Shown: positions 29,780 to 59,719 of the stretch, piece by piece
How the letters are laid out: every line of letters begins with the position of its first letter
Numbering within the stretch: the stretch's first letter is position 1
Assembly: GCA_020722725.1 (NCBI GenBank)
Contig: DYKG01000001.1
Span: 1-64,000 of the forward strand
Reading direction: 5' to 3'
Source of the DNA: Candidatus Methylomirabilis sp.
GTDB lineage: Bacteria > Muiribacteriota > Ozemobacteria > Ozemobacterales > Ozemobacteraceae
DNA length: 64,000 bases
Made by a program: the position numbers and the translations under genes
The notes under the pieces: model-generated
The model's input: the letters and a program-made list of their open reading frames with translations, nothing else
Database searches by the model: none
What the model was told of the DNA's origin: nothing

Positions 29780-29786
29780 CGGCTCA

Positions 29787-34009: not shown

Positions 34010-34064
34010 GTCAGCACAAATAAAATTACCTCATCTTTCTCTTGAATGCAAGAGAAAGACGAGG
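34010..34064 (-). terminator. Terminator after the PorV-like gene
   Basis: A 16-bp stem with one mismatch (arms 34029-34044 and 34049-34064, loop AATG) is followed on the minus strand by T-rich TAATTTTATTTG. It ends the transcript carrying the lipoprotein and PorV-like genes. Confidence 0.65.
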
Positions 34065-34098
34065 TTTATTGTAAAGGGGATTTATAAAAGCTTTCAGC

Positions 34099-35067: not shown

Positions 35068-35141
35068 ATTGTTTCCCCTTACAAGTCGATAGAACTGGTT
35101 ATCTATCATTTCGGCAGTAACATTGATTTTCTGAACGATTA

Positions 35142-35176: not shown

Positions 35177-35869
35177 TCAGATACCGGTTAATCCAAGGTC
35201 CTTGAGTGATTTGTAAATCTGCGCCACCGAACTGTCATTTGAGCTGTCTTCGGCTCTGGCAACGTTGATCTGCGATCTGGCCCTGTCGTCGTCACCCGGC
35301 TCATTGCGCCAGAAATAGCAGAAAGCCAGCATGGCATGGGCTTCAGCGTTGCTGATACCAATCGGATGAGTAGACTGGAAAACGAAAGCAGTGTTCTGCA
35401 GGCCGACCTGCTCGAGCACCTGAATCGCCTGTTTGAACCCGGCCAGCTGGCCGCGCTGCATTAATGCAGAGGCCAGGCCGACTCTTGATTCATTGTTGGT
35501 GGAAGCTGCCTGGGTAAACGCTGAATAGCCGGATTCGATACCTGAGGATTTGGTAAGAGCCCATCCCAGGCCGTTGTAGGCATCGGTTTTCTGAGTGTCG
35601 GTGATATTGCTGATCGTCAACATCTGATTGAATTTGTTGATGGCACTGGAATAAGCGCCATATCTGAAGTCTTCCCAGCCTGATGCAACAAGCGAATCCG
35701 GGTCGGTTTCGCCGGTGCCGCCAGTGCCGCCCCCGCCAGTTCCGCCGGTTCCGGGAGTCGGAATTTCCGGGGGAATGGTGTATCGGCCACTGCCGCCACC
35801 GCTGCCGCAGCCGCTGGCAATCATAATAATCATTGCGATGGTAAACAGCACCATTAGTTTTTTGTTCAT
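35177..35869 (-). CDS. Lipoprotein B, small TPR-like, partner of the 3257-residue protein
   Basis: A 230-residue lipoprotein. The signal peptide ends in ASGC (Cys21), followed by a Gly/Pro-rich flexible stretch and a helical, TPR-like domain. It is a clear paralogue of the 45833-46591 protein: both end with GxSNAEAHAM, a YFWR element, and an identical GLTGI terminus. GGAG lies eight bases before ATG 35869. An earlier in-frame ATG at 35887 lacks a site. It starts 26 bases after the giant gene's stop, so the two are co-transcribed. An envelope-anchored partner or assembly factor of the giant protein is inferred. Confidence 0.82.
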   Translation of the reverse strand: MNKKLMVLFTIAMIIMIASGCGSGGGSGRYTIPPEIPTPGTGGTGGGGTGGTGETDPDSLVASGWEDFRYGAYSSAINKFNQMLTISNITDTQKTDAYNGLGWALTKSSGIESGYSAFTQAASTNNESRVGLASALMQRGQLAGFKQAIQVLEQVGLQNTAFVFQSTHPIGISNAEAHAMLAFCYFWRNEPGDDDRARSQINVARAEDSSNDSSVAQIYKSLKDLGLTGI

Positions 35870-35895
35870 TCTGCTATCTCCAATCATTTGTGCAA

Positions 35896-38800
35896 TCAGC
35901 GCAACACTGCGATTTTATGCGTGTATTTGGCTTTCTTGTTCCAGTTATCCGGGTCTCTTACCGTAATTTTAGCGAAGTAAACGCCGTTGGCCACGTTTTT
36001 GCCGCCGGTTGACCGCAGATCCCACAATACATCCTGAATCTGCAGAGCGCCGTTAGTGCCGGTTCTGATACTGAGATTGCTGCCGTCAGCAACCTTGTGG
36101 CCGGCTGCGTCGTAGATTTTCACTTCAATTTCGCCCCAATCCACATCGGGCCGGTTGGTGCTGATGCGCAGGTTTGCTCTGTTGCGGGCGGGGTTCGGAT
36201 ACTGGTTCACTTCGTAGATGACCAGCGGTGGCAATACCTGGAACCGGATCGCCGGTGAAGTTGCCTGGTTGCCGGCCTTGTCGGTCAGGCGCAGGCTCAT
36301 GTCATATTCGCCGCCCACCAGATCTTCGGTCGGGGTGAATCTGGCAATCTGACTGCCCGCATCTACCGTTACCGGGTAAGCGCGGTTGTTGAGAATTGCC
36401 ATGGCTTTGGCTGCTTCGAGACCAGAGCCGAATTCGTCAACTTTCCAGATGAAGGTTGGTCTGGGCTCTCTGATCGGCTTTTCCACATCAATTTTGGTTT
36501 CAAGGCTTGCACGCGGAGCCAGAACGTCTTTCATGATTGCAAAGGTGCCTGGTTCGCTGGCGTTGAATTCGATCACGCCATCTTTAAGGCTGTAAGTTAA
36601 CGGTTTCCAGCCCGCACTTACATCGCTTCGGTAGAGGCCGGTTGCGGCGGCAAGCTGATCGGCACTGAGTTTAAATGTCGATTTGATATTGCCGGCAATT
36701 CTTCCCGATGGCAGGTTAATGGTATAAGCAATGCCGACAGGAATAAGTTCGTCAGCACTTCGACCCTCAACCACACTGGCACGCAGCGATGAAACCTGGG
36801 CTTTGGTCAGTTCAGCCAGAACCGAAGGAACGATCATCGATGCAGATGTTTCACCGGTTACCCGGGTAAGCTGTTCGGGAACGATGGCTACCAGACTGTT
36901 TTCCTTGAGAGTTCCCGGTTCGAAAACTGCGGTGAAGTTCTGGTCTGGTGACTGGACCGAAGCTCTAACTGATGCATTTACGAATGCAGTAGAAAAGCTC
37001 ATGTTCGTTGTTCCGGTATTGGTCGAGATGTCGGTGGCAGTTACCTTGACCGTGGCTACACCGGGGTAGTTCATGTCAAGATGTGCGCCGCCGATGAAGA
37101 TGCGGTTGTTCGGCCCGGCATTGAGAACGAGAGATACGGCAGTGCCGCCGCTCTGGGTGATTACTGCGGTCGGGGCCCCGGACAAATCTTCATTTGAACT
37201 TACCACGATGCTGAAGTCAAATTCGTTGGCCGGGTTGCTGAATGCGGTAATTGTAAGAACCGGAGGCGTTATATCCTGACCCTGGAAGGTCACTCTTGCC
37301 AGAGCACTGTCGCTAAGATTGCCGAACAGGTCTTTCACGCCAGAAGCTACAATCGTGTAGTTTTTGGTTTCAACGATGTCGTCGAAGGCGGTTATGGTCA
37401 CCGATTTCAGATCGGCACGCAGGCTTACCGACTCGATAGCGACGGTGTCGGCACCGCTGGTGAGCTGGAAGTTGCCGACCTGCTGTGAACTTACCGCTTC
37501 AACCTGTTCGTCAAATACCAGATTGAATTTTTTCTGTGAATTCAAGCCATCATAGGTAATGGCGCTGATGATCGGGCCAAGAGTGTCGGCGGTGAAGACG
37601 CCGGTATTATTGCCTGAAGTGATCGGGTCATCGTCGATGCTGCGATAACCTGGATTAACAGTGAGTGTGTATTGGGTGTTATGAGTCATTGTGTAAGTCA
37701 GCGGAATTTCGACGGTATTGTCATTTACCACGATCGGGGTCACCGCGCCGATACCTGCCGGTGTTGCCGGTGACAGCGAATAATTGCCGGGGATGCCTGC
37801 ATCGGCCGGATTAACCGTATGACTGAAAGTGACTCGGATGTGATTTTTGTCGATCTGCGCAACGCTGGTAACTTTGAAGGTCGAGTTTACCACTGCGATG
37901 TCTTTGCTGGTGTCGGTCGATTCGTTGCCGGCCAGGTCGATGACGGTCATTTTATAAGTGCCGTCAACCACGGGCTGGTTGGCCGAATCGCGGCCATCCC
38001 ATTCGACTTTGAACGGAGTTGCGGTTTCTTCGAGCAGCAGTTCACGAATCAGCGACGATCCGGCGGTAATTTTCACCAGAGCGGTTCCCGAGCTCACTGA
38101 AATATCATTACTGTCAACTTCAATTCTGAGGCGGGTAACGTTCGGGTTGAACCGGGTTACTTCGTTCCCGTTATCGACCCTGAAGGTTCTGATGCTTACA
38201 ATACTTGGAGCAGTTCGGTCGATGACAATGGTGCCGGTTGCCTGACTGCCGACGCCCAGCGGGCCTGCAATATTGCCGGCGCGGTCAACCACGTTGGCCA
38301 GATATTCGCCGTCGAGCAGGGTGCCTTGCGGGGTGTTTGTATCTTTGCCGTCAAAGCTGATCGTATAGCCGCCGCCGGTAAGGCCGGTGAGCGGGTAAGT
38401 GTCGGTTGAAACACCGACATTGATCAGTCGCATTTTTAGCGAATCGCCTGAAGACGGGCCGAACACGTCGATTTTTGCAAACGAACTTACCAGAGGACTG
38501 AAGTAAGCTTTGTTGTTATAGGTTCTTACGTTGCCGTAGCGCCACAGTGAGGCTTTGGGTGCCAGGCCATCGTAAACGATGCTGCCGCGCTTGCTGGCTT
38601 CATTGCCAGCGTCATCATAAAGGCGCAGCACATATGTTGTCGGGCCAGTCTGGCCAACTAATGAACCGTTGATGACACCGTTCCAGTTCGCTGTTCCGAT
38701 CAACCCTGCGAGATTTACCGGCAGGCTGGCCACTGAAGCGTCGCCCTGGTAAATATGCAGCCACAAACTGCTTGCCAGCGGCGCGGTTTGGAAGTTGATG

Positions 38801-41800
38801 GTGATTGTTGCGATTCCGGACAGAATATAGGGGCTGAACGGCTGATCGATCAAATCACCGGTTGGTGAAGTCTGTTTTGCGGTGGTTGACTGGTAGGTCG
38901 TAACCACATAGTTGTTGATGTTGGGGCCTTTCGATCTGATCTGCAGCTGTGAAGGCAGCTGCACTTCGTTATTGCCGCGGTTTCCGGCTTCGTCATAGCC
39001 GCCTGATACAAAGTAGGTGTAAGTTCCCTGTGCCGTATTGGCGTCAAAGTTCGCCGAGTTGGTGAATCGGGCAGTGGTAGAGCTGATCCATGACTGGAAG
39101 GTGAACGACATGACGGTGTTGAGAGTGTCGCCGAGGCGCAGTTGCGGCTGGAACCCGCTACCTACGCTCTGATCCATGGGCTCGTCAAAGGTAACCTCAA
39201 ACTGGGCGCTATTGGCCGGAGTTATGCCAATGGTGCCGTTGGGAATGGCGGCCAGCGGTGTCGGCTGCTGGTTATCGAGAACCAGCGTGTAGCTGGCGTT
39301 TTTGAAGCCGTTGACCGAGTTGTCTTTATCGGCAAGGTTATAAGACAGTGATGCCGTTTCAATGAAGGTCGCGGCACTGGATGCATCAGAGAAACCGCTT
39401 ACCTGCACGTAACAGGGTCGGCGCTGCAGATTCGAAGACGACAGGTCGCTGTTGTTGGTGAAGCGCGCAACCGTTCTGGTAATACCGCCCTGAACATGGT
39501 CAAGCCAGCCGACGAATGCTGCCGTGTCTTTCGGATTGATCGGGTCATCCTGGGTGAAGAGCTTGAGCACCGGGGTCTTGGTGCGGTCGATGGGAATGTA
39601 GACATCGGCCGACAGAGTTGCGGTTTCGAATGAAACTTCATAGAAGAAGTTGTTGATCGTCTGACCTTTGGCCAGCTGAATCTGCTGGGCCGACAGGGAT
39701 TTTGCCGGAGAAACGGCGAGAGTCTGAATTCTCGGTGCGGCAATTGAACCGGGATAACTGATCGGAATCAGTTCCTGGGCGGTTCCGCCCTGCACCGGGT
39801 ATCTGATGCTGCCGTTGCCCCAAAGATCGATGAAAGCACTTTCAGAACATGCGATGTAGAATTTGCTGGTTCCCCAGCCAAGCATTGTCTTGAGCGCTTC
39901 TGCGGTCAGCGGTATGGTAACGGTATTAGAGGCGTAATCCACGTTGATTGTTTTAAATGCGGTGTAATCAACCATAGTGGCATTCAACGGAATAGAGCCA
40001 TTGGTCAGGTCTGCTTTTGCATAAAGATATATGCGTGACAGATCCACCGGCAGGTCGCGGCTTAACTCGATAGTTTCGGCAAGGTTTTTATACGGATCGG
40101 TATAAAGCCGTGCGCGTCTTTCGGGCGCGGTCTGGAATCCGATCTTGAGCAAAGGAGTAACCCCGGTCAGGTCAAGAGCTGCGCTCTGAATCGAGAACTG
40201 ACTGTTGAGCGGAATCAGCGTTCCAGGAGTGGCAACATTGTAATCGATGGGAACGATGCGGTTGCCATCGAAATCTCTGATCAACGGAGCCGGATCAGCC
40301 GGATCAGGCGGTTCATATTCGCTGCCGCTGATCTGCATGTGGAACCGGGCACCGACTCTGGTATAGTTGAGTGCGATCCAGTCCTGCGCCTGCTGTGAAA
40401 GCCTGATTCTAAGTCTTCTGGTGGTGTCGAGTCCGACTACAGTGTCTGGAGCCGCAGTGGTGATAAAGCGGTAACGGTTTGCGTAAGTGTCAGAAGGATT
40501 GCCGCGATTTTTCCAGATTGCCAGATTGCGCAGGCTGGTATCGTTTATCGACAGCGGGTCCATGTCTTTATCGAATTCGAGATAGAGAAATTCTTTCTCA
40601 GAAGGCACATTGGCGTTGTAATAACCGGTTACCAGTCTTGGTCTGGTGGTATAAACGGTTGGAATATTAACCGGGAAAGTTGCGAGCGTTCTTGCCAGCG
40701 GTCTGAGCCAGTTGCCTGCCTCGTCGAGGGCGATCGGGTCGTAAGTGTTGACCGTTGCTTCGCCGGTGGTGGTATTGTGTGCAATTGAGATGTAGAGGTT
40801 TGTCTGACCCCAGTCAGAAACAATCGCTTTGGTACCTGATGAGAGCTGAATGTTGATGCGATTGGCGGCATAGGTTTCAAGAACGAAATCATTGACCGGA
40901 TCCAGGGAAGTAGCACCGCCGGGAACCTGAACATCTGCGTGGTCAATGGTTTTGCCAAGCCGAACCAGATCAAGGTTGGCCTGAAGAAGCGTCGGTTCGA
41001 TCGGTTCATTGAAGTCCAGAGTAAGAATATTGCCGCTGTAATTGGCCATGGTCAGGTAGGGTCTGGTGGTGTCAATCGCCAGTTCGTGGTCAACCCAGGC
41101 TGTATTGCCTGCACCATCGCGAACGTAGATTCTGAAGGTTCGGGTCGCCAGATCGAAGGTGTTGGTTGCCAGATCGAGGGGCAGCGAGTAAGCCGTCAGC
41201 GGGTTCTGAATCTGGGTAAGCTTATAGGTTGAGGTGCCGTCGATCGGCGTGAAATCTACATAAGCCATGCCGTTGCCGGTGATGTCACCGGTATTGGTCA
41301 CGCTGATCGAAGCTACAATGCCGTCAGGCGCAACACCATCGCCATCGGCAGAGCGGTAGCCATCGCCAACATTGGCTATCCAGTCATTCTGATTGCGGTT
41401 TTCCACACGCAACTGTGAATCTGTTATGACCGGGGGATCGTTATCAACGGTGAAAGTTGCCATCTTTAGAGGGCTTTGAGTAAAGTTCTGGGCGTCATCA
41501 GACACGATGACACGGTAGCGCGGCGTTTCGTTGTTCAACGCGGGCCAGCCAGTCAGGGTGGTAGTAGCGACTCTGAACATGCCTTCCCAGACTTTGGTGC
41601 CGGGTATCTGATGAATCGGTGTCTGGAATATTTCGGTTACATTGTCTGAACGATAAAGAATTGCAGTGGCAGAACCGGGGTCATCAAATTTGTTGATTTC
41701 AGTTCTGACATAGAGCAGGTCATTGATATTGATCGCATTCGAAGCAACGTTGTCATTGTTTTCGTCGAGGACTGCCAGAATGACATTTTGCGGGTCTGGC

Positions 41801-44800
41801 AGCAGAGTGTCGATACCGAATGGATTGTCAGGATCACACTGCATGGTGGTCGAGGCAAGCACAATCGAAGATGCATCGGGATGCAACACTCTTACGCCAA
41901 AGCTGGCGACATTTGCATCGACTCCGCCGGCGCTCACGGTAAAGGTGTCGCGATATACATAGTTGCCCGCCCCACTGATCGGGAAAGGCTGGAATGTCAG
42001 CGGTGTCCAGTAAGTTCGCATGTCACCGTCATTGTAAGCGGTATTTGAATCATCTGCCGCCGAGTTTATCAAGCTTCGAATGTCGGCAAGCACGGTTGCA
42101 GCCGGAGAATTGTCGATGTTATACAACGAAGTGAGAACAACGGTAAGAGTTACCTGATCACCGGGATTGGCGATGCGGTTCTGTTCCAATGCCGGCACTG
42201 AATCGAGGCTGAGGTCAGCTCTGGTCTGTGGGAAAGGAGCAAAGGACGGGGTTTTAGACAGAAATCTTATCGAGTTGGTATAACCGTACTTCATGTTGCC
42301 TGAGGCATCGTAAGCTAGAATGGTCAGAGAGCCGACGGTTCCAAGCCCTTCGGGAATTGTCCATTCATAGACGTATTCGCCCAGCACTGGCGGCGGGAAC
42401 AAGGTCGGACCCGGGGGGGTAAGGCCGTTGGCAAGATAAAGATTGGTGAAATCGATCATCGGCAGAATGCCATCATTGTTGGTCACTCTAAGTCTGATTT
42501 GAATTACATCGTTGAGATTTGCTTCGTTCAGTCGGCCCTGATCGACTTTGAAAGCGATCGGGTAAATTTCCAGCTTGGGCGGGCGGTTATCGATGCGCAC
42601 CTGGTTGGAGGTGGTTGATACCATTTCGTTGCCGTTAACGTCGGTGAGCTTGATGGTGAAAGCAACCTGTTCGTCGTTGGTTGTGCCTTCAATCGGCATA
42701 TAATCGTCAGTTGCGCGCCATCCGGTAGCGGTGACCGACCATGGAACCTGGCGGGCGGTTTCGTTGATGCCGAGCTTGGTCAAATCGATGGTCATGGTGC
42801 CCATGTCGCCGGTATTGCCCTGAATATCGACCTCGAGCCTTACCACATCGGTTGCAACACTCGGATATGTTGTGTAAACCCCGTCGAGATCGACGATCGT
42901 GTTGCTGTTGTTATCGAAAACCTGGGTCATTGTGTTGGCAGCTATGGTTAGCGGCTTGTTATCGACAAACAGCGACTCGGTGGTGCCGAGTACCCGGTTG
43001 CCGGCATTGTCAGTCAGCTCAACTACCAGTGCAATGTTTTCACCATCAGTGGTGCCTGCTATAACTGTATGTGTGTAGCCATAAATGCCGTCATTGGCGA
43101 GATTGTCGTTGTTAGCACCGTCGTCGTAAAGAATCTGGGCAGAATTGCCGCCGAGACTGGTCAGGTTGACCACCGGCGTGCCGCCATCTACTCTTGTCAG
43201 ATCAGCTTTTGCCGTAATCGTTACTTTATCGCCGACGTTCACAACGCCGGTTTTGCCTTTTAGTTCCTGAACGGTGGCTGAGGCATACATGATTACCGGC
43301 GGGCGGCAATCAACTTCAAATGTTCCTGAGAGTGAATTCATCGTATTGCCGGCTTTGTCTGAAACAATGGCGCGGAAAACGTAACTGGTGCTTTCCATGG
43401 CTGCTTCAATACAGTCATGAACCAGATAATAGCGCAGCAGAACCGGGTCGTAGTTCATTACGTATGAACTGCTGCCGCCGACATAGGAAAGGTCGATGGT
43501 ACAGGTTCCAGAATCCTGGTCGGGCACTGGAACGATGATTTCCAGTCGGTCACCTATGTTAACTACGCCTGATTTGTTGAGGTCGGTCATGTAATTGATC
43601 GCCATCGGGCCCACATCAGGTTTTTTGTTGTCGAGATGAACCATGATATTGCCTGAAATTGCATTCCCGGCGTTATCTTCACCTCTGAACGCGAAATAGT
43701 GGTCATCATTCAGGTCGCCTTCAGGAATATCGATTGATGCTGTATATGAACCAACTCCGTCATAGATGAGATCAAGTGGAGCGGTCTGGCCAATCTCGGT
43801 AAGGGTAACCTTGACTGTTTCGCCATCATGAATTGCAGCTCCTGAGCTGGCAAGTTGAACGAAGAAGGTAACCCGGTCATCGATTCTTACATAAGGGTGC
43901 GAAGCCGAGATTGCCGGTGAAGACGTATATCTGCTTCCCATCAGTTTGGGAATTTCGTTGTCAATGTTGATGCTGTTGGCTACCGTGTAAACAGTGTTTC
44001 CCGCATCATCGGCCGCATAAATGGTGAATGAAACGCTCTGATCATAGGTAGTTCCGTTAGTCGGATCACCTACCGTATGATCGAGGCGGTAAGTCGTTCC
44101 TGAATAAGGTGAAAGGGTGCTGCTTGCAGTGCCGCCGATTCTTTCAAAGTTTGTCCAGATTGATCCACCGTCGATGCCGGTCAGGTTGGCTTGAATGGCG
44201 ATCTGATCGCCATGCCTGGCGGTCTGGCTTGGGCGACTGATGTTCTGAATCTGCCCGGCGCTGATAATCGGAGGTGTGTTATCGACATAGACGATCGGCA
44301 GAACTACCTGGCTGATCGTATTGCCTGCCGTATCTTTCGCAGTTACGGTAAATGCCCGGGGTGTGGTGTTTTCGGAGGTGTATTGATGAATGTCATACCA
44401 GAGTTCAAAAGTTGTGGTTGCGCTGTTGTTGAAAGGAATAATCTGGTTGGCGACTCCACCGATACCGGTTAAGTCAACGGTAATGGTAACGTCGGCCGTA
44501 ATGCTTGAAAGGTTGCCGTAGAAATGCAGCTGGTCGCCGATAATCGCGATGTTGTCGCCGATCAGACCGCCTTGTTCGCTAATTGCTACGCCGAAAGGCA
44601 GCGAAAATTCAGGAGGCATGTTATCGAGAGCCAGAGGATTGGAGGTTCCCGGTGAACTTTCGTTGCCCACATCGTCAGTGGCACGAACTTCGAAAGTTAC
44701 GAAGTTGCTCTGAATATCAGGCACATCGGCCAGATAATAATCGTATTGGAAAGTGGCTTCGCTGCCGATTGCGCCGGCAGTCCTGATCATGGTGATTCCG

Positions 44801-45669: not shown

Positions 45670-45696
45670 TTAAATGGTTCCTCCGCGGTAGTGGAA

Positions 45697-45718
45697 CTGA
45701 TAGTTTTCGACTATTCAG
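45697..45718. repeat. Inverted repeat in the leader of giant protein B
   Basis: CTGATAGT (45697-45704) and ACTATTCAG (45710-45718) pair with one bulged base around TTTCG. It lies 28-49 bases before the ATG of the giant gene and could form an RNA hairpin or an operator. Confidence 0.35.
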
Positions 45719-45757
45719 TTAGTTAATCGACACTTTAAAGAGAAACCCGTAGTGAAA

Positions 45758-45800
45758 AAGAAAAAAATGCCGGGGCGCTGTTTTAGCTGCCCCGGCTTTT
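45758..45800 (-). terminator. Intrinsic terminator between the two giant-protein cassettes
   Basis: Perfect 8-bp arms GCCGGGGC (45769-45776) and GCCCCGGC (45789-45796) are followed on the minus strand by ATTTTTTT (45761-45768). It lies 36 bases after the lipoprotein A stop, so giant protein B needs its own promoter or read-through. No clear promoter was found in the 88 bases that remain. Confidence 0.85.
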
Positions 45801-45832
45801 CCCTGTAACTCCCCTTCAATGGGGTATATTCG

Positions 45833-46591: not shown

Positions 46592-46594
46592 GGA

Positions 46595-49500: not shown

Positions 49501-52500
49501 GCATGTCGTGCAGAATTTCGCTGGTGCCACTGGCAGTGGTTGATTGATAAGAAGTCGCGTAGATGCTGGCGACTACCGGGCCGCGCGAGCGAATCTGCAC
49601 GGTTCCGACCACCGCATTGTTCAAAACGTTGCCGGTAAGGTCGGTGGCAGTAACCTGGTAGTTGTATTCGCCCTGCGGAATGTCTGGATTAATGGCTTCG
49701 GCGGTTACAAACCTTGCCTGAGTGGTTGAAAGCCATGATTCGAAAGTGCAGGCGATGTTTTTTGTGCTGGTAGCAAGTTTTAGAACCGGAGTTGCCGAGG
49801 CTTTCATCGGTTCACTAAAGGTTACGGTGAATGTTGCTCCGCCGACGGGTTCAGAAGTCAGAGGCGTGCCGTTGAGCGAGAGCACTGACAATACCTGAGG
49901 AATATCGCGGTCAATGATCAGAACTGTTGTCGAAGCGGCGCCAGATGCCATGTTGCCGGCGAGATCGAAGGCAGTGATTGCATAGGTGCCGGTGCTCAGT
50001 AGAGCGGCCTGAGCCGCGGTGACGGTTGCGCTGTATTCATCGGTCGCGTCGTTAAGAGTCATGCTGTATGCGGCGGTTGCAATACCGTTGGCAGCAACCA
50101 GAAGCAGGCTGTCGGTGGCAGTGCTGGTGAATTTAACTTTGAGGTCGCCATGCAGCGCCTGGTTGTAGTAGAGCGGGTTATTGCTGCCGTCTGAAACGGT
50201 GCTGATGCTGGCCGCAGTTATATCAGGGCCGATGGCATCGTAAATCAGGGGCAGGGTATTGGTCGCACTGAGGTTACCGATGCTGTCAACCATTCTGAAC
50301 CGGTATTCGCCGGGTCCGACGTTGCCGGGAGTGCCGAAGAAGGCCGCATCAACGGTGACAGTGGCCACTTTGTTGGCAATATCCGGGTTGACCACGATAT
50401 TGCTGACCAGCTGATTGCTGCTGTTGTAAACCATCATGTTATGCGGAGCCTGGAACGGGCCAGAGCTGTAATTGAGACTCAGTGTCGCAATGCCTGGCAT
50501 TGCATTAATCGAGAATGGCCGGTTCAGCAGTTCGGTTGAACCACTGAGCATGTTCTGCTGTGAGCGCAGAGTTGCTGTGACCACCGGAGCCTGAGTGAAG
50601 AGATCGATGCTGAAACTGCCGGGGGTGGGGTTAACGTTGGGGTTGCCTGCCAGATCGCGGGCTCCGGTAACCTGGTAACTGTAACTGCCGGGTGCATAAC
50701 CGCTCAGATTCGTGGTGTTGGTGAACTGGCATCTGAATGAATCGAGCCAGACCGGTGAGCCGAGGTTGATGATCGTGCTGCCGGTGGCGATGGTAGCAGT
50801 CGGAGCGATAGCAGTATTCATGTGTTCATCGAAGGTGATGACGAATACGCCGGTGCCGGCTGCGATTCCACCAGAGATGTTGGGAGTGGCTACGGTAACC
50901 GTGGGTAAAGCGCTGTCAACGATAAGTCTCGCGCTCGATGCGGTGCCAATGGCAATGTTTCCGGCCCGGTCGGCGAACAGAACGTCGTACACGCCATCGG
51001 CCAGGGTTGAGCCGATCGAAACGTTGTGCGAAGTGGCAGAGCCAGCCATCGGATAAGTTGAGGTTGCCGGGCTGATATCGCGCAGCAGCATGATCAGCTC
51101 TTCATTGGCAGTTGTGGTGGCAAGGAAGGTCGAGTTGCCCTGTAGCGGCGACAGAAAGTGAATCAGGCCGGCCCCGGTGTCGGAAGCGATACCTGAGCCC
51201 TGCATGGCGATTACGTTGTTGATGTTAGGAATGTCTACATCGACATAGAAAGGCTCAGGCAGATAAGAACCGGAAATGTTGTCCTCCGCATCGCGGATCT
51301 TGAAGCGATAAGTGCCGGTCGGGTGAACTCCGGCATAAACAATCGATGCAGGGTCGGCAATCGGAATGGCGATGCTGGCGACCTGGACGTCGGTGCTGTC
51401 GAAGATCAGCAGACTGTGCTGATTGTTGAACGGGCCGCCGCTGTAATCAATATTGAAAGTTGCCGGGCCGAATGCCGGGTTAAAGGCGAGGTTTTTCTGC
51501 TGAGTCGCATAAATGTGGGCCTGATCGGTGTAAACATCGATCTGAGCAAACGGGCCTTTGGTCTGAATTTCGACCTTGAAGGTGCCGACGCTGGGAGCGA
51601 GCATGGCATTGCCTGCCAGATCGCGGCCACCACTGATATTGTAATTGTAGAAGCCGCTCGGCATTGATGAGGCAATTTCGACTGCATTGGTGTAATAAGC
51701 GGTTGAGGCAATTGCCGGGTCAGCCCAGCCAGCAAAATTCATGCTTATTGTTGCTGATGAAGTTGCAAGAGTCAGGGTTGGAACCACTGCCAGAGATGCG
51801 TCCATGTTGTCTGAGAATACGACGGTGAAAGTAGTTCCACCGATTGGGCTGTTACCGATGAGGCCTGACGGGCTTACCGCCAGAACGGTGGGAACCTGTT
51901 TGTCAACCACCAGCATGCGGACAGACGGTCCGGTGCCGATGTTTCCTGCCAGATCGACGATGCTCAGGGTATAGGTGCCGTTGGTAAGCAGGTCGCCGGT
52001 GGATATCTGGTAATTTCCCGGCAGGGGTTGATTCATATTATAGGTCGTGGTTGCATTGGTTGCGTAAGAATAGATGGCCAGTCGCAGATTGTCGGTGGTT
52101 GAAGTGGTGGTCACATTCAGGGTGAAGTTTCCGACACTGGGGTTGTAATAGCTTACAGTAGCTGATTCAGAGCCAATTCCGGTTAGGGCGAAGCTGTTAA
52201 CGTCTGGTGCCAGATTGTCATAGACAAGGTTGGCGACGCTTTCAGTCTGGTTCATGGCCGAATCAATGATTCTGACGCGATAGGTGGTCGGACCGGTCAG
52301 GCCCGGGTCGATATCGAAATCAGTCGAGGCAAAAGTCGCGGTTGCGGTATTTGCTAAGGAGACTGCGGTAACCGGCACGCGACCGTAGCGCACATTTGAA
52401 TCGTCGTAGATTTCCAGATAATGGGGCAGATACTGTGTCGGAGCGGTGGTATACTGAATTGCAAAAGTTGCCGCGCCGATCTGCTGGCTCCATGGTTGGT

Positions 52501-55500
52501 CGATGCGAACAGTGTTGTCAATCGTTGTCTGAACAGTTGTGATTTTGACATTTCCTGCCGCTACTTCAGGGGCGTAAGTGCGAACTTCAACCAGGAACGA
52601 CGAGGTGCCGTCGTGGGTATTGGTTGCTTCGTCACGTCCGCCGGTAACTTCCCAGGTCCAGGTTCCGTTGATGGTGGCCGAGGTAAAGGCAGTGTTGTTG
52701 GTGAACCTGGCAATATCGGTGGCAAGCCAGCTATGGAAAGTGAAACTCATGGTCGTGGTGCCGGTAGCGAGTCTGAGAGTCGGCACTACCAGCGGATCCA
52801 TGGCTTCGCTGAATTCGACGCGGAATTCTGAGCCGGCGGGCAGTCTGCCGATGTAATCGCCGGGAATTACCTGAACCACGGTGGGTTTCTGGGTGTCGAT
52901 TTCAATGGGTGACGAAGCTGTGTCGCTGAATCCGTCGGGGGCCGTATCGTTTTTCAGTGCCAGATCGTAGGCAAACGATGCCACGACGTTATATGAAGCA
53001 TTGAAAATATCTCTTATTCCGTTCACTTCGATACGTGCGGGTATTCTCTGCAGATTGGTCGGGAAGTCGGCGGCGTTGGTGAAACGGGCAACCGTTCTGG
53101 TTTTGCTGTTAACCGTGCGGTTGGTATAGCTCACAAAAGTGCCGTTGCAGATTACTGCACCGGTATCCTGTCTGATCAGCTGTGCAGTAGGCTGAATCTG
53201 TGTCTGAATCGGAACATCGACACCATCGAGATTGGCGGGATATACTTCGACTTCAAAGGTAAGTTGCCCGGCGGTTTTCTGGCTGACCGGCGGTTTGTCG
53301 CTCATCGAACAGGCGGCTACGGTTACCGGGTTGTATCCGGCTGGGTAGATCATGTTGAGGGAGCCAGGGTTGCCTGAAGGCAGATAGGGGGTGTTGTTTG
53401 TTCCCCATAGGTTGGTGAACGCTCCGGCATTTATCTGCAAGCGCCAATCTGGGGTAGCGCTGCTCTGGAAGAGGTTGATGACGTTATTTACGTCGGTTGC
53501 CGTCAGTTTAAGCGCGATGGTTGAACTGGCGTAAAGATTGTCGGTTGGTAGCTGCAGGTCTTCAAGCTGAAGAACTACTGAAGAACCGGAGTCGAATTCA
53601 TGTAATATGACCTTGTTGTGGAATCCACTGACCCTTTTTGACAATGTGGGAATCGGCATAAGCATGAGCGGTTCGGTGGCATTGGCGCGGGCGAAGTCAT
53701 TGGTAAACAGCAGCAGTCGGTCACTGGCGGTAAGTTTGAGTGAACGGCTTGCCATGTCGAGTTCGGGGGTTGCGGCGTCAAAATCAAAGGCCGGTGTGGG
53801 CCGGTTATCGGTGGCCTCAAGGGCAGCCTGACTTGAAATTGCCTGCATATCTTTGGTAAGGAAATCTTTAACGAATACGCGCCCCGATCTGGTGGCAAAT
53901 CTCAGCTTGTTGCTGCCATTGCCAAGCTTGCGGGCGACCCATTCGCGGCTGTTACTGCTCAGGGTTATGCGCAGGTGCTTGTTGTCAGACCATGAAACGG
54001 TATCAAGAGTGGGCTGAAATACATAGCCATCGGCGTAATCTACGCTGCTGTAGTCATAGGTCAGGTTTTTGTAAAGAAGAACGCCGGCTGATGCCTGCAG
54101 AGTTGCGGGGTCAACATCTTTGTTGAAGGTGAAATCGAGAACAATGCCTGCTGGCCAGGTCTGGGTCATTACCAGCGAAGTTACGCGGGCCGGTTCCCGC
54201 CATGATGAATCGGTTATGGTTACCGGTGCGAAGTTGATCGGTCTTATTTCATTGTGTGTCAGATCGCTGACTGCAGATGATGCAGTGTTGGTTACCTGAA
54301 GATAGAGAGAGGTCGAGGCCCACTGGGCGACCGTAATTTTCTGGGCATTGTCGAGTACGATTTCAAAATCGGTCAGCGAGTGGTTGACCGTCTGCCCAAC
54401 CGGGAAATTCAAATAAGCGGTTGAACCTACCGGCAAAGTGTTGCTGCCTACCAGAGTCCATTCGTCGATGTTGAGGCTGGCATTGGTGTATTCCTCAGAA
54501 AGGTTCACCTTGATTATCGACCCGTCGAACTGTGAAGAACTGATGTTGGGCGCAACATTATCGATAAAGTAAGTCGCGGTGGCGCGGTCAGTGTTTCCGC
54601 CATCGTCGCGGGCGATCAGGTAAATTTCTTTGTTTACCCCGTCGAATGCAGCGAATTTAGAAGAGCCGATTCCCGACAGGGTGGCGGCCGAAGAACCGTT
54701 GATTGTCAGATCAAGAGTGCCTGAGCCGAGTTGCGAAAAATCGAGCCATGCCTTATTGATTGGAACATCGTTGGCGAAGTTGCAGGTAACATTGAGCAGG
54801 TCGCCCACCGTTGAAGTTCCAAGGTTGTAAACCGGGTTTGAAAGGCCGTAATCAGGGTTAAGAGTAAAGGTTGCCGTTACCGTTGGCGGTTCATTGCGCA
54901 CGGTGAATGCTGAGTTTGCCTGAACCATGTCAGCAACGTTACCCATATCGTCAACCGCGGTAAGCTTAAAATAAATATTGTTGCCGCGCTGAATGCCCCA
55001 GCCGCCGGTTCCCGGTGCGGAAACGGTGAACGTTGCTTCGTGGCGATTCAAGCTGCTGTTGAACGTCATGGTGCCGGTTGCGAAATCTACAGTTCCTGAG
55101 CCGATGGTTGCCTGCACGGTGGCATCGAGATATGCCGCAGCGCTGGCATATACGGTAATCACATCGTTTATGTTGGCAACGTTGGCAATTGGGTTGTCAC
55201 CGTTATCCTGGCTGATTACAATGCCGCTTGAACTGAATTTGACCGGCTGGCAATCTACAACCTGCTCAGTGGATGAGGCATTGGTAAGGTTACCGTTTGC
55301 ATCATAGACTTTAGCGGTAAAGATGTGATTGGTAAATTTCTGGTTGTATTCGGTTGCAACAAAGCTGTAGGTGTAGGTTCCCAGCAGATAATTCATTGCC
55401 TGGGCAGACGGGCCGCCGATTGCGGTCAGATCAACGGTGGCATTTCCGGCATTGGCAGTATCAACGATACCAAGTTCAAAGTTTACCTGATTGCCGATTC

Positions 55501-58500
55501 GAATGCTTGGAGTGCCTGATGCAATGGTAACATTCAGACCGGTGGCCAGAACCTGAGGTAAGTTGTCAACGGTTAACGTTGTGGTATATGTAGTAACGTA
55601 GTTCTGATCGTTGTCAAAAGCCTTAACCACCCATGATGCCGGGGTCAAACCATCGAGGGTGCCGGTGGCGATGTCGAATATCAGGGTAAATTTACCCGAA
55701 CCGGCATCGATCAGTGTCTGATTTGCCGTGCCGCCGAGCGATGTCAGATCGATAGTCGGGCCGGTGCCTTCGTTATTCTGCACCCAGACATCGAAACGAA
55801 TCTTGTCGCCGATTGCCAGTGGTGAAGTGCCCATTTGAATAGTCGCAGTGGCTGCTACGATGCCGGGCAGCTGGCAGTCAACCCTATAACCATTTGAAAC
55901 TGCCATTGTCGAGTTTCCCGCCCGATCATAGAGCATTGCTCTAAATTCATGGCCAAGGGCTTCGAAAGTGGTTGATGCAGTGGGAACAAGAATTGAATAT
56001 GATGCCTCGTCGCTGGCAAGAAGAGCGGTGGCTGAGCTGCCAATCGCTGTAAGATCGATGGTTCCGGTTGAGTGATCTGAGGCAAAAGTTCCGTAGGGAA
56101 TATTGAACGAAACGATTTTGTTGAAGTTGATGGTGCTGATGACGCTGTCGCTGTAACCAGGCTTGTAAGTTGAAGCATCGATGATGAAATCATTGATGGT
56201 CAGCGGCTGGTTGTCAATTGGAACATAAATGAAAGTGGAAGTGGCATTGCCGGCGTTATCGGTTGCAGTTACGTTGAAGCCGGTGTTAATGTGGTTGAGT
56301 GTGCCGGTGGCAACTCCGCCGGGCAGTATGTAATCGAACCAACCGGTGCTTGAAGGCGAAGCGGTCATGTTCGAAGCGCCTGACTGGCCAAGTGGCAGCA
56401 TGTTGATAAGAATGCTCGAAAGTTCGCCGGTTGGCTGGCTGGCGCTGGCAATCTTAGCATGGAAAGACAGGTAATCTTGAATTCTTACATAGCCGTCATC
56501 CATTCCAATGTTTACGTTGTGATAGGAGTTGGTAGCGATGCCGGCAATGAATGGTGGCTCATTGTCGATCATCATTGAGTTGGTGTTGGCAGTTACCAGG
56601 TGAGCGATAACATCGCTGGCCAGAATGTTGTCATAAACCGTGTCGTTGACACTTACTCTGAAAGAGGTTTGGGCATCACGTACAATGCCGGCTCTTATTG
56701 AGTCTTTCAAAGTAAAACTTCGAGTGTAAACTCCTGAACCAGCCGGGTTTTCTGGTATAAAAACCATAGTTGGTGTATCAGGAGAGGTAAAGGAAAGATC
56801 AATCGCAGAAAGGTCCACAGTTACTGAGCCCATTTCTACGCCGGTGGCGTTAACCGTGATGGTGAAAACATCGTCAACGTTAATGTCTGCGTCAGAGTTT
56901 GTCAGTGTTGCGCTGGTTATTACCGGCAAAGTGTTGTCTATTCTTACTATCGGTGAAGTATTTTCCTTGAGAAGCTGAACATTGTCTTTGTCCAGGACAG
57001 TGACAGGGAAGCTATAGGAAACATCATCTTCCAGAGCACCTGCTGGAATTGTCCAGACCGCTCGATATTGATCGAGCCCCGCCATCTTTGGCATTGCCAA
57101 TGATGCCGGCCCGCCAACCGAACTCAAATCTACGGTAACGGTAAGCGGGGTTATGTTGCCTGACGCCGCCATGTTGGCGGTTATTTCAAGTTTGCAGGTC
57201 GTGGTCGCAAATTCAAAGCCAGAATCAGAGTTGTTCGGGTTTAGAACATTGGCGACCAGCGTATAGGGTCGGTTATAGATTTTGTAACCGCTGGTAAAGT
57301 CGGAGACTCGATGCGAGATCATGGTCAGGTCGGCGGCAATGGTGTCGTTGGCTGAAACCCGAAAGCTTTTCGCGCCATCGACGGCGAAACCGGCTGCGGC
57401 TTCGGTCGGCAAGGTGAAGGTCTGGGAATAAGTGGTGCCGGTTTGAAAGTTCAGGGTTGACAGTGGGCTTAAGCCAAGAGATGAAAGGTTGACCGTTACT
57501 GAACCGGCTTCGATGTTGGTTGCGGTGCAGCTGATGGTGAAATCGGTGCCGGCAAGAATGGTAGGATTGGCAGCGGTGATCGAAATTCCTGAAAGAGTGG
57601 GTTGAACGCTGTCGATGCCTATCGGCGGGGTGGTCGAGCGCTGCACGAACTGCACGTTGTCCTTATCGCGAACGCTGACGACGAAAGTGTGATAAACGTT
57701 GTCTTCAAGCGCTCCGGCGGGAATTACATATTCGGTGCGATATTCATCACTCGCGCCGACTCTGGGCATTGCCTGGGCTGCGGGCCCGCCGATCGGACTC
57801 AAATCAACCGAAGCGGTCAAGGGGGTTATTGCACCGGTTGCGGGCACAGTTGCGCTGATGATGATTTTGCAGGTGGTGGTCGCAACATTGTAAGGTGAAT
57901 CGGAGTTGTCTGGATAGAAGACATCAGAAGTAACTATTAGATTGCCGTTGTAAAATTTATGCGCGGGAGTAGTGGCATTAACCGTGTGGGCAATTACGGC
58001 GGGATGGGCGGCTATTGAGTCGCGGGCGGTTACCGTGAAGGTTTTCGGGCCTTCGACGGCAAAACCGGCTACTGCAGCAGTTGGCAGAGTAAAGGTCTGC
58101 GAGTAAACATTTCCGGTTACTATGGTCAACTGCTCGGCATTGCCGAGGCCAAGACCGGACAGATCAACAAAAACGCCGCTGGTGCCACCAGTTTCAATTA
58201 AATTGGCTTCAACTGCGATGGTGAAATCTTCTCCAGCGATGACCGTTTGCTCAACGCTGGTAATGGTAATAACGCCAACGGTTGGCTGAACGTTATCGAT
58301 CTGAACATCGGGGGTGGTTCCCTGTAAGATGGTATTACCCGCCTGGTCAACCGCACTTGCCTGAAAGCTGAAATTGGCGGTGTCTTCTATGGTTCCGGCG
58401 GGAATTGTGTAAACGCAGCGGTAATCACCATTGGCAACCTGGGTCATGGCCTGGGCGGCAGGGCCACCGATCGGTGTAAGGTCGGCCTGTACTGTGATCG

Positions 58501-59719
58501 TGTCCGGACCGGCGTCGATTGGAATCGAAGCAACGATCTCCAGCTGGCAAGTGGTGGTGCCAACGTTAACTGTAGAGTCGGTGCCGCCTGGCAGAAGAAT
58601 ATTGGCTGTGAGATAGTTGAAAGCCGGGGTGTCGAGGTCGATGGCAAAGGTTCGGTCAACGGTATTCACATTGCCGGCGTCATCGACAAAGCGGAAAGTA
58701 ACCAGCATTGCGCCGCTTTTTATATCGGCTTCGCTCAGAATCACGTCCTGCTGCCATACTGCCGGGTTGCCTTCTCCGGATGAACTGATGAGAGGCATGA
58801 CAACCCCTGCAGAGATGCCTGCAGGGTTTGCTCCGGAAGTCAGAGTTGGAATGGTGACCGTTACGGTTTCGTTGTCATATTGGGTTACTCTGGCTGTCAG
58901 CCTGATAATATCTCCGGCAAGCGCAGTAGCATTTCCTGAAAGCACCTGAATTCTTGTCTGTGCAGTGTCTATGACTGAGGGCCTGGTATCGAGAATGAAA
59001 TCATTCGAAACAAAAATCATTGCCGGGTGTAATGGGTCTTTGAGGGTAATCTGCAAAGGCCCGGTGTATTCGCGGTTAGCCAGATAGAGTTGGGTGCTGG
59101 CATCAAGAGTGAGGCTGAAAACACCGCCGGCGCCTGTATAGGGAACGTCAACGTTGTTGCCCCCACCTATGGGTGTAAGATTTACATAGGCTTTGGTGCC
59201 GCCATAGGGGAAGGCCTGATACTGAGCATCGGTGATGCTTATCGTGATATCCTGTCCGTTTGGGATCACCGCTGGAGAAACTGTAGGATTCGAGCCATCT
59301 ACTTGAACCAGGTCAAATAGAATTGTGTTGGTAACGTTGGATCCGGTAACCAGAAGGTTTGTCTGGCCACTGATGGTAACGGCTGCGCTTCCAGGGTTAA
59401 GACCTGCCCGCCACTCATCAAGATCGATATCAACCCTGTATTGACCAGTCTGAGCGTTGATCTGGTTCATGATGAACTGACCCATACCAAGATTGGCACA
59501 ATCTACATAGGGCGGAACCAGCCAGAATTCAGTCTGAGTTGTAAAGGTCGCAATTGTTTCAATTCTTATCTGGTCGCCGAAATTGGTGTAACCGTTGTTG
59601 TCGCGGTCGAGCTGCAGGGAAAGGAAAGATGCATCGATTACCGGTGCAGCACTTGCATTGGAGATCAGCAACGCCTGTATAAGAATAAAAGCGAAGAACA
59701 GCCAATTTAATCGCTTCAT
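46595..59719 (-). CDS. Giant secreted Ig-like repeat protein A
   Basis: A 4374-residue exported protein, signal peptide 1-24 (NASA-AP cut). The first 1700 residues are Ig-like modules, with three tandem supra-units of about 240 residues (56565-58625). The middle has at least four Big_5-like domains (EFSEAMDP, VFSDNMDA, TFDEHMNT, TFSEPMKA) alternating with GxxTYxxRxxD-type modules. A block with AEFAADSLKED lies near 3990, then an Ig-like domain, then a 105-residue FlgD-like or type IX-sorting-like end (YPNPARV, IYDVAGHKV, GVYFARIEV, IAILR). Extra N-terminal residues from an in-frame start at 59746 are unlikely, because AAGGAG lies before ATG 59719. It should be a cell-surface filament or adhesin. 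A sigma-28-like promoter precedes it. Confidence 0.86.
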   Translation of the reverse strand: MKRLNWLFFAFILIQALLISNASAAPVIDASFLSLQLDRDNNGYTNFGDQIRIETIATFTTQTEFWLVPPYVDCANLGMGQFIMNQINAQTGQYRVDIDLDEWRAGLNPGSAAVTISGQTNLLVTGSNVTNTILFDLVQVDGSNPTVSPAVIPNGQDITISITDAQYQAFPYGGTKAYVNLTPIGGGNNVDVPYTGAGGVFSLTLDASTQLYLANREYTGPLQITLKDPLHPAMIFVSNDFILDTRPSVIDTAQTRIQVLSGNATALAGDIIRLTARVTQYDNETVTVTIPTLTSGANPAGISAGVVMPLISSSGEGNPAVWQQDVILSEADIKSGAMLVTFRFVDDAGNVNTVDRTFAIDLDTPAFNYLTANILLPGGTDSTVNVGTTTCQLEIVASIPIDAGPDTITVQADLTPIGGPAAQAMTQVANGDYRCVYTIPAGTIEDTANFSFQASAVDQAGNTILQGTTPDVQIDNVQPTVGVITITSVEQTVIAGEDFTIAVEANLIETGGTSGVFVDLSGLGLGNAEQLTIVTGNVYSQTFTLPTAAVAGFAVEGPKTFTVTARDSIAAHPAVIAHTVNATTPAHKFYNGNLIVTSDVFYPDNSDSPYNVATTTCKIIISATVPATGAITPLTASVDLSPIGGPAAQAMPRVGASDEYRTEYVIPAGALEDNVYHTFVVSVRDKDNVQFVQRSTTPPIGIDSVQPTLSGISITAANPTILAGTDFTISCTATNIEAGSVTVNLSSLGLSPLSTLNFQTGTTYSQTFTLPTEAAAGFAVDGAKSFRVSANDTIAADLTMISHRVSDFTSGYKIYNRPYTLVANVLNPNNSDSGFEFATTTCKLEITANMAASGNITPLTVTVDLSSVGGPASLAMPKMAGLDQYRAVWTIPAGALEDDVSYSFPVTVLDKDNVQLLKENTSPIVRIDNTLPVITSATLTNSDADINVDDVFTITVNATGVEMGSVTVDLSAIDLSFTSPDTPTMVFIPENPAGSGVYTRSFTLKDSIRAGIVRDAQTSFRVSVNDTVYDNILASDVIAHLVTANTNSMMIDNEPPFIAGIATNSYHNVNIGMDDGYVRIQDYLSFHAKIASASQPTGELSSILINMLPLGQSGASNMTASPSSTGWFDYILPGGVATGTLNHINTGFNVTATDNAGNATSTFIYVPIDNQPLTINDFIIDASTYKPGYSDSVISTINFNKIVSFNIPYGTFASDHSTGTIDLTAIGSSATALLASDEASYSILVPTASTTFEALGHEFRAMLYDRAGNSTMAVSNGYRVDCQLPGIVAATATIQMGTSPLAIGDKIRFDVWVQNNEGTGPTIDLTSLGGTANQTLIDAGSGKFTLIFDIATGTLDGLTPASWVVKAFDNDQNYVTTYTTTLTVDNLPQVLATGLNVTIASGTPSIRIGNQVNFELGIVDTANAGNATVDLTAIGGPSAQAMNYLLGTYTYSFVATEYNQKFTNHIFTAKVYDANGNLTNASSTEQVVDCQPVKFSSSGIVISQDNGDNPIANVANINDVITVYASAAAYLDATVQATIGSGTVDFATGTMTFNSSLNRHEATFTVSAPGTGGWGIQRGNNIYFKLTAVDDMGNVADMVQANSAFTVRNEPPTVTATFTLNPDYGLSNPVYNLGTSTVGDLLNVTCNFANDVPINKAWLDFSQLGSGTLDLTINGSSAATLSGIGSSKFAAFDGVNKEIYLIARDDGGNTDRATATYFIDNVAPNISSSQFDGSIIKVNLSEEYTNASLNIDEWTLVGSNTLPVGSTAYLNFPVGQTVNHSLTDFEIVLDNAQKITVAQWASTSLYLQVTNTASSAVSDLTHNEIRPINFAPVTITDSSWREPARVTSLVMTQTWPAGIVLDFTFNKDVDPATLQASAGVLLYKNLTYDYSSVDYADGYVFQPTLDTVSWSDNKHLRITLSSNSREWVARKLGNGSNKLRFATRSGRVFVKDFLTKDMQAISSQAALEATDNRPTPAFDFDAATPELDMASRSLKLTASDRLLLFTNDFARANATEPLMLMPIPTLSKRVSGFHNKVILHEFDSGSSVVLQLEDLQLPTDNLYASSTIALKLTATDVNNVINLFQSSATPDWRLQINAGAFTNLWGTNNTPYLPSGNPGSLNMIYPAGYNPVTVAACSMSDKPPVSQKTAGQLTFEVEVYPANLDGVDVPIQTQIQPTAQLIRQDTGAVICNGTFVSYTNRTVNSKTRTVARFTNAADFPTNLQRIPARIEVNGIRDIFNASYNVVASFAYDLALKNDTAPDGFSDTASSPIEIDTQKPTVVQVIPGDYIGRLPAGSEFRVEFSEAMDPLVVPTLRLATGTTTMSFTFHSWLATDIARFTNNTAFTSATINGTWTWEVTGGRDEATNTHDGTSSFLVEVRTYAPEVAAGNVKITTVQTTIDNTVRIDQPWSQQIGAATFAIQYTTAPTQYLPHYLEIYDDSNVRYGRVPVTAVSLANTATATFASTDFDIDPGLTGPTTYRVRIIDSAMNQTESVANLVYDNLAPDVNSFALTGIGSESATVSYYNPSVGNFTLNVTTTSTTDNLRLAIYSYATNATTTYNMNQPLPGNYQISTGDLLTNGTYTLSIVDLAGNIGTGPSVRMLVVDKQVPTVLAVSPSGLIGNSPIGGTTFTVVFSDNMDASLAVVPTLTLATSSATISMNFAGWADPAIASTAYYTNAVEIASSMPSGFYNYNISGGRDLAGNAMLAPSVGTFKVEIQTKGPFAQIDVYTDQAHIYATQQKNLAFNPAFGPATFNIDYSGGPFNNQHSLLIFDSTDVQVASIAIPIADPASIVYAGVHPTGTYRFKIRDAEDNISGSYLPEPFYVDVDIPNINNVIAMQGSGIASDTGAGLIHFLSPLQGNSTFLATTTANEELIMLLRDISPATSTYPMAGSATSHNVSIGSTLADGVYDVLFADRAGNIAIGTASSARLIVDSALPTVTVATPNISGGIAAGTGVFVITFDEHMNTAIAPTATIATGSTIINLGSPVWLDSFRCQFTNTTNLSGYAPGSYSYQVTGARDLAGNPNVNPTPGSFSIDLFTQAPVVTATLRSQQNMLSGSTELLNRPFSINAMPGIATLSLNYSSGPFQAPHNMMVYNSSNQLVSNIVVNPDIANKVATVTVDAAFFGTPGNVGPGEYRFRMVDSIGNLSATNTLPLIYDAIGPDITAASISTVSDGSNNPLYYNQALHGDLKVKFTSTATDSLLLVAANGIATAAYSMTLNDATDEYSATVTAAQAALLSTGTYAITAFDLAGNMASGAASTTVLIIDRDIPQVLSVLSLNGTPLTSEPVGGATFTVTFSEPMKASATPVLKLATSTKNIACTFESWLSTTQARFVTAEAINPDIPQGEYNYQVTATDLTGNVLNNAVVGTVQIRSRGPVVASIYATSYQSTTASGTSEILHDMPFSFNVAPGAATLTIQLAQAPDAAPIDLHFMQSGVTVASYPLVLSGTAATFTWSATNGPNPAFPTTYQVKLVDASGDFSLESYDWTMDASAPATLTGPTVTRGVIATGAVYFNPAIHSYLNVKFSASETSAPKMRVRGSISTDTYDLSTAGTNQWSGNFDGRFSRGTSPKPLMPDGTYALDLVDQAGNVGMLASGNPILYNIVIDTQSPGISTYSTLVAGMPVTSYSPAAGNLEIRVVSGETLNETGIYWMEVLNSSNIKINQLRVNNSGGNKSAFWDGKNSAGTTVLDGTYSFRATDYAGNPATGSISVFALTTTFKVVGVSQISSSTAKLIFNHEVNPNLSGAIITAPGLTVTNLNRIEPQAVSFTVVPNFAHLTNYTFTITPNTIKSIYGAGINSPDNTGTLTADGQGPKLTEVSFAGLSGQQEFKVIFDETFSAASAGDVGKYSLTGPSGAVALSAATTQSDAKTVLLTASQNLIENADYQISVTGIEDTYGNLSPTTNSLSFKGRDLTAPTLEVSAFSNPANENDIIVVVVSNEDLKAAPVLQIAQSNAPIITTTMQTGANSKSFMIGVHLSTSYPGNGTLLATAQDLAGNQGSGNSTFTVAYISASKVASLVSADNSLTAEFAADSLKEDAVIKIMTHRLEKSSEANSQIRTALQRQAKLALGMRAAQAASGLNQAELEPVSHAHEISISSAKVNKGFNVFVEMPAASSATGLGLFYQDNNQWKFISAAPTRGNKLATRISTSQMLAILHDTKAPEITISTDINLAEPFRTPRPEFHGKIVEAGSGLDLTTVSASIDSGPAQNVTVDASGKFTFIPQADLTGGWHDLVIRASDNTGNVSAMAPVRFEVTVPLQITQIAQYPNPARVRTFVRISANRGDIDESLVRVRIYDVAGHKVATLDGIRPVNEKWGINARFVYDIPWDLRNTAGKKVANGVYFARIEVRDPDDQNRKVKETFKIAILR
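56565..58625 (-). repeat. Three tandem two-domain supra-units in giant protein A
   Basis: Protein repeats of about 240 residues begin near 58625, 57960 and 57280. Each has ATTTC or GTTTC near its start, then IGGPA or VGGPA, IPAG(A/T)(L/I)ED, and in the second half SQTFTLPT or RSFTLKD. The first two pairs are the most alike. They probably arose by unequal duplication. Edges are approximate. Confidence 0.75.

Follow-up and report, generated by a model that had tools for sequence, protein, structure and literature searches.

The window analysed here, a stretch of 64,000 nucleotides, lies within a 285-kb contig of a 3.6-Mb Riflebacteria (Ozemobacteraceae-like) MAG, whose named relatives belong to Candidatus Riflebacteria and include Ca. 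Rifleibacterium amylolyticum and Ca. Ozemobacter sibiricus. Its minus strand carries, in this order, giant A, lipoprotein A, giant B, lipoprotein B and a gene for a PorV/PorQ-family barrel (Table 1). That is, the cassette is duplicated as the original prediction had it, each of two giant genes being followed by one of two paralogous lipoprotein genes, after gaps of 3 bp (pair A) and 8 bp (pair B). The longest ORF for giant A has a TTG start at 59746. Because a strong hairpin with a U tract follows lipoprotein A, pair A looks like a transcription unit of its own; the stretch from giant B to the PorV-family gene showed no terminator hairpin, and there is one behind that gene, so that giant B, lipoprotein B and porV may be transcribed as a single unit.

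Table 1. Features of the duplicated cassette and its downstream neighbour (positions in the window)
Feature	Position	Strand	Description
Giant A	46595..59719	-	4374 aa from ATG; N-terminal signal sequence, Ig-like array, C-terminal sorting tail
Giant A sorting tail	46598..46951	-	Predicted T9SS type-A-like C-terminal sorting tail
Lipoprotein A	45833..46591	-	252 aa; lipobox Cys27, Gly/Thr/Ser-rich linker, TPR domain
Intrinsic-terminator-like hairpin and U tract	45768..45797	-	Between lipoprotein A and giant B; z -5.1
Giant B	35896..45669	-	3257 aa; signal sequence, Ig-like array, C-terminal sorting tail
Giant B sorting tail	35899..36246	-	Predicted T9SS type-A-like C-terminal sorting tail; PorU C-terminal domain match
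Lipoprotein B	35177..35887	-	236 aa; predicted disordered linker, all-helical TPR domain at residues 61-236
PorV/PorQ-family outer-membrane barrel	34099..35068	-	3' of pair B; longest ORF 34099-35157, likely ATG near 35068
Terminator-like hairpin	34028..34065	-	3' of the PorV-family gene

Ig-like domains with a period of ~110 residues make up most of both giants, which also share the C-terminal domain claimed for them: A and B are 36% identical across the final ~1140 residues, with weaker similarity further in. For giant B, the final ~110 residues match NCBIfam NF033707 (4e-17), the model for the C-terminal domain of PorU, the T9SS sortase, and in a search of the genome this model recovered both giants. 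When a profile of 15 Riflebacteria tails was compared with the PDB, PorU came first (3.7e-16), followed by FlgD, by PorZ (5m11) and by the sorting domain of RemZ (8glj, 0.002). The identities of 5m11 and 8glj rest in part on PMC10994853. Invariant in the 15 tails are P11, N12 and P13, D40, G76, G82, Y84 and K105; the tail is always terminal, and its last strand is KxAVLR-like with an invariant lysine, type A tails being reported to conserve a lysine in that strand (PMC11285876, PMC10994853). Thus the hallmarks of the C-terminal sorting domain of T9SS type A cargo (an Ig-like domain at the terminus, PNP, G.Y and last-strand lysine) are all present. With the Pfam model Por_Secre_tail (PF18962, cut-off 27 bits) giant B reaches 22.7 bits and giant A is unlisted; some relatives' tails pass the cut-off, at 28.1, 27.4 and 30.0 bits. 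To judge from these sequence matches, the last ~110 residues of the giants are a T9SS type-A-like sorting tail whose closest counterpart in the PDB is PorU.

Lipoproteins A and B are 47% identical, and both indeed end in GLTGI. This ending is typical only within one family (f1), that is, among close relatives, and was rejected as a signature of the lipoprotein family. Across 58 homologues the invariant residues are the lipobox Cys27 and two glycines of the TPR region, Gly106 and Gly137. Lipoprotein B matches TPR_19 (26.4 bits), and AlphaFold2, run on the alignment of the 58 homologues, predicts a linker disordered to about residue 60 and then an all-helical stretch (residues 61-236, pLDDT ~97), for which a structure search returned generic TPR matches including MamA, PilF and PilW (TM ~0.5). 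Both marks of a TPR lipoprotein are accordingly found, the lipobox cysteine in the sequence and the TPR fold in the predicted model. The paralogues number one to eight per genome, are roughly 200-280 aa long and each lie behind a cargo gene. In several genera of the family the tandem pairs A and B recur ~10-25 kb apart, from which we conclude that the two pairs have long stood in tandem. A PorV-family gene stands directly behind lipoprotein B in most genera of the family.

In a first survey, the lipoprotein profile matched in 39 of 40 genomes of the phylum, and at the loci retrieved 59 of 65 lipoproteins followed a tail-bearing ORF, ~55 of them unmistakably; in four of the 59, all from genus g10, the upstream ORF had a weak tail match and a different end. 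Two of the six unpaired lipoproteins were at contig edges and one was a fragment of a broken gene, and for the rest the tail gene was slightly further off or an ORF start had been miscalled. We then devised an unbiased census, in which lipoprotein profile (E<1e-15) and tail profile were searched independently in 12 whole Riflebacteria genomes, all more than 90% complete. A sorting tail ended upstream on the same strand for 44 of the 47 lipoproteins, where chance would supply 0.03; the distance from tail to lipoprotein was 0-135 bp in 43 of these pairs and 520 bp in the other. One of the three lipoproteins lacking an upstream tail was near a contig end. No tail was found within 1 kb downstream of the census lipoproteins or on the opposite strand, and the nine weak TPR matches in these genomes were all without a tail upstream. 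The original prediction had named lipoproteins mostly without giant neighbours as the outcome fatal to itself; this refutation fails, 44 of the 47 having their partner directly upstream.

The reverse relation is looser: a lipoprotein stands behind 44 of the 77 tail matches in the 12 genomes, some of these matches being internal or doubled, and behind 4 of the 6 in the window's own genome. A tail can therefore do without a lipoprotein, only about half of the tail matches being paired. Tailed proteins of ~900 aa with no family lipoprotein behind them (L072:5568-8222 in G000:C65, L119:4665-7382 and L120:1181-3871) are encoded near, or are similar in size to, a ~1000-aa protease-like cargo, and a further class of tailed giants of 4000-5700 aa, with no lipoprotein following, was seen on G009:C50, G009:C24, G009:C44, G010:C118 and other contigs. 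In four genomes of genus g10 (G018:C27, G019:C171, G020:C40 and G021:C286) the lipoprotein A-like gene has been kept and the giant upstream of it replaced or altered; in three of the four, a tail-bearing giant is encoded at another place on that contig.

Giant size does not define the partner. Within Riflebacteria the tailed partners include Ig proteins of ~1800 aa and proteins of ~1000 aa that match Peptidase_MA weakly. A scan with the lipoprotein recovered distant homologues in Eisenbacteria, KSB1, TA06, WOR-3 and Poribacteria, and at 14 of the 18 scan loci outside Riflebacteria the upstream gene ends in a classical PNPF ... WDG ... SGVYF ... KK tail (two of the 14 have an upstream gene that is cut by a contig edge or frame-shifted, leaving a tail fragment only). 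When a profile of the homologues was run against whole genomes, 12 of 14 new full-length matches with room upstream had a tail directly upstream; among the additional matches was a second form of the lipoprotein, of ~300 aa, with an extra N-terminal domain. Outside Riflebacteria the tail genes often overlap the lipoprotein gene, several by a few bases, or end within ~30 bp of it. Exceptions with other neighbours (L191, L206, L226 and L231) occur in Poribacteria; at L195 the tail-bearing gene is downstream rather than upstream of the lipoprotein, and L202 and L229 have too little upstream sequence. The pairing nonetheless recurs in Eisenbacteria, KSB1, TA06, WOR-3 and some Poribacteria, and the passengers there, among them subtilase, BNR-repeat and purple-acid-phosphatase-like proteins, are unrelated, with the tail constant.

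The strict pairing that had been proposed therefore stands, and the class of partner proposed with it, giant Ig-like proteins, does not: we rejected giants as the defining partner, since ~1000-aa and smaller unrelated passengers keep the same kind of lipoprotein, and the feature that partners share appears from their sequences to be the sorting tail, not giant size or an Ig array. Because only the tail is common to all upstream partners, the tail or its immediate vicinity is, by elimination, the likeliest thing for the lipoprotein to recognize. Distances among lipoproteins correlate with those among their partner tails (r 0.59) above anything obtained in 2000 within-genome shuffles of partners (mean 0.18, maximum 0.50), so each pair is evidently copied and inherited as one unit; such co-segregation could arise from linkage by itself and is not proof of specific binding.

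With regard to export machinery, the PorV/PorQ-family neighbour of pair B scores 133 bits with NF033709 (cut-off 90) and is below the strict PorV equivalog cut-off (49.8 vs 250); PorV is its sole PDB match (5e-5). A PorV-type outer-membrane carrier is thus present, at the level of the PorV/PorQ family, which is above its cut-off in 33 of 37 relatives. In distant Riflebacteria families (loci L133, L137, L138 and L139), tailed proteins of ~630-680 aa are followed directly by a PorV-family gene with no lipoprotein between. Neither the SprA/Sov translocon nor the PorU sortase was found above cut-off in any of 37 Riflebacteria genomes, and of 19 pair-carrying genomes from other phyla the same SprA model passed its cut-off in 14; a GldL search of the 37 genomes gave no match and was equally silent in control genomes. 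Because no canonical SprA or PorU was found, we do not file the Riflebacteria system as a T9SS, and the idea of a canonical one there was rejected. Many relatives encode a C25 peptidase of ~610-700 aa (as at L144:3826-5883 in G006:C48) with C25 propeptide and C25 C-terminal domain and no sorting tail, and it is possible that this tail-less peptidase is a stand-in for PorU.

Riflebacteria genomes each have an outer-membrane barrel of ~800-1400 aa, mostly single-copy, with a short SprA match (L126:94-3099 in G000:C85, with relatives L127-L131, L143 and L145-L165); it occurs phylum-wide and contains a stretch resembling SprA 591-715. A profile of the ~1000-aa barrel aligns in collinear pieces with genuine SprA, in two parts of its N-terminal portion (E about 1e-13 to 1e-22). 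It matches far better, in some of the other-phyla genomes, a distinct barrel of ~1100 aa (up to 3e-54), and it found no match among PDB sequences. The predicted model has more than 30 strands, with SprA structures among its first matches beside other large barrels (TM ~0.2). Since the ~1100-aa barrel matches better and the structural matches are generic, we did not accept this protein as SprA itself; from sequence and model it is a candidate 'mini-SprA', that is, a reduced translocon. A tyrosine recombinase gene adjoins the gene for this barrel in several genomes.

Among described systems, the pair most resembles T9SS type B cargo, for which a PorP/SprF-like partner is often encoded directly downstream, is required for secretion, is present in about equal amount and is believed to keep the cargo surface-bound (PMC12618676, PMC9143113). 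As in the type B pairs SprB-SprF and Fjoh_3952-Fjoh_3951, the outer-membrane partner of a large surface protein that bears a C-terminal sorting domain is encoded by the next gene, with several pairs per genome (PMC12618676, PMC9143113); the census showed a dedicated partner gene right behind the cargo gene in 44 of 47 cases. Unlike type B, the tail here is type A/PorU-like, and the next gene encodes not a PorP/SprF-family barrel but a TPR lipoprotein of ~200-250 aa. The present pair would thus follow the logic of type B with different parts, as an analogue with no sequence kinship to PorP/SprF. In the PorE-PorP-PG1035 complex, PorE is a larger, multidomain lipoprotein (PMC7192894), unlike the small TPR lipoprotein here.

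Type A cargo with PorV offers the other half of the comparison: PNP, IYD, G.Y and the conserved lysine are shared, PorU is the best PDB match, and a PorV-family barrel is encoded next to pair B. Type A cargo, however, shares one PorV and has no cargo-specific lipoprotein described for it, and neither SprA nor PorU was found above cut-off in the 37 Riflebacteria genomes. SprE/PorW is likewise a TPR lipoprotein tied to type 9 export (PMC10994853), but as a translocon component it is not encoded behind each cargo, whereas here small paralogues stand each behind one cargo. Finally, PilF/PilW and BamD combine a lipid anchor with a TPR domain and gave weak structural and sequence matches; they are general assembly factors without linkage to tailed cargo, and the matches are those of a generic TPR (TM about 0.5).

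We are highly confident that tailed protein and lipoprotein stand in a functional cargo-partner relation. Building on the observed pairing, lipoprotein family, tail, lipidation motif, predicted TPR fold and PorV-family neighbour, we consider it probable that each two-gene unit supplies a type-A-like tailed cargo together with its own outer-membrane TPR lipoprotein, which recognizes the tail and escorts or anchors the cargo. Lipoprotein-cargo binding, the direction of export and the anchoring role enter the following scheme as we infer them. Sec would carry both proteins across the inner membrane, as their signal sequences indicate; the lipoprotein would be lipidated at Cys27 and placed in the outer membrane, where a predicted flexible linker of 30-60 residues would let the TPR domain reach out; and that domain would recognize, in the cargo encoded on the same transcript, either the sorting tail or the stretch immediately preceding it. 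The PorV-family barrel would gather tailed cargo at an outer-membrane translocon, for which the 'mini-SprA' barrel is the Riflebacteria candidate, and the lipoprotein would remain bound, in about equal amount, keeping the cargo on the outer membrane, as is thought for PorP/SprF. For this last part, a cargo-specific anchor or carrier role, our assessment is tentative; we prefer it to a chaperone role because one helper per cargo suggests that the helper is consumed, that is, that it stays bound.

The chaperone reading, on which the lipoprotein is a periplasm-facing export adaptor that holds the tail of its own cargo, passes it to the translocon and does not stay bound, with a task like that of SprE/PorW, BamD or PilF/PilW, is one that we rate as rather unlikely. 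Periplasm-facing TPR lipoproteins of the outer membrane are common helpers (PilF and PilW are among the structural matches), the TPR lipoprotein SprE is part of the extended T9SS translocon (PMC10994853), and co-transcription with the cargo would suit a chaperone. SprE/PorW, BamD and PilF/PilW, however, are general factors present once per genome, in contrast to the one to eight copies here, one per cargo, and a reusable chaperone need not multiply along with its cargo.

We think it improbable that the giants are exported in some other way, with the FlgD/PorU-like tail being one more Ig fold and the lipoprotein a general tether of the surface layer or envelope. The absence of SprA and PorU above cut-off in the 37 Riflebacteria genomes would fit such a reading, as would the scores of both window tails below the Pfam gathering score for Por_Secre_tail and the resemblance of FlgD-type Ig folds to the tail. 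Against it stand the tail's constant terminal position, its KxAVLR-like last strand with invariant lysine, its occurrence in unrelated passengers and its place beside a PorV-family gene, and canonical SprA is present in most of the tested genomes of other phyla with the pair. That the lipoprotein gene hitch-hikes by co-transcription and serves some unrelated function in the envelope, a reading to which co-segregation through linkage would lend itself, is very improbable given the excess of pairs over expectation in the census and the same gene order in several other phyla, with replacement of passengers and gene overlaps. The cargo-partner unit with a tail-recognizing lipoprotein is thus the reading that we retain.

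The original prediction knew of no described system of this exact form, which holds for the pair as far as the literature searched here goes, though not for the tail and the PorV-family gene, both known T9SS-type elements. In a literature search that took in a minority of subscription papers, we came across no account of a TPR lipoprotein that serves a single type-A-like cargo, nor, at the level of titles, of a T9SS in Riflebacteria; PMC11285876 does not name Riflebacteria among the T9SS phyla that it lists. Pairs of a tailed cargo and its own outer-membrane partner are already known in kind, and one TPR lipoprotein per type-A-like cargo may be what is undescribed. We would go further only speculatively, to a doubtful third class of T9SS-related surface display, in which type-A-like cargo proteins each have a TPR lipoprotein as receptor and anchor, which would be distributed across several candidate phyla, and which in Riflebacteria would operate without canonical SprA, possibly by way of 'mini-SprA' and the PorV-family carrier.

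The findings suggest that the type 9 principle would extend to Riflebacteria. T9SS-type sorting tails occur in many proteins, including those of phyla for which only part of the machinery, or none, is known; a passenger-independent lipoprotein, kept across phyla, is a concrete candidate receptor for these tails and lends itself to tests with small soluble domains. The pairing points to delivery or retention of proteins at the cell surface by one helper per cargo, and it gives a likely role to the widespread 'TPR lipoproteins of unknown function'.

Downstream of the cassette, window positions 25840-32691 hold type IV pilus genes (PilB-like and PilT-like ATPases and a prepilin peptidase N-terminal domain), among which sits a sulfatase-like gene. 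Upstream, the ORFs at 60115-60957 (+) and 61120-61653 (-) are without any Pfam match, and two intergenic inverted repeats, at 61036-61083 and 61811-61856, are alike, with the form GGTTGC ... GGTCGAAGCAACC.
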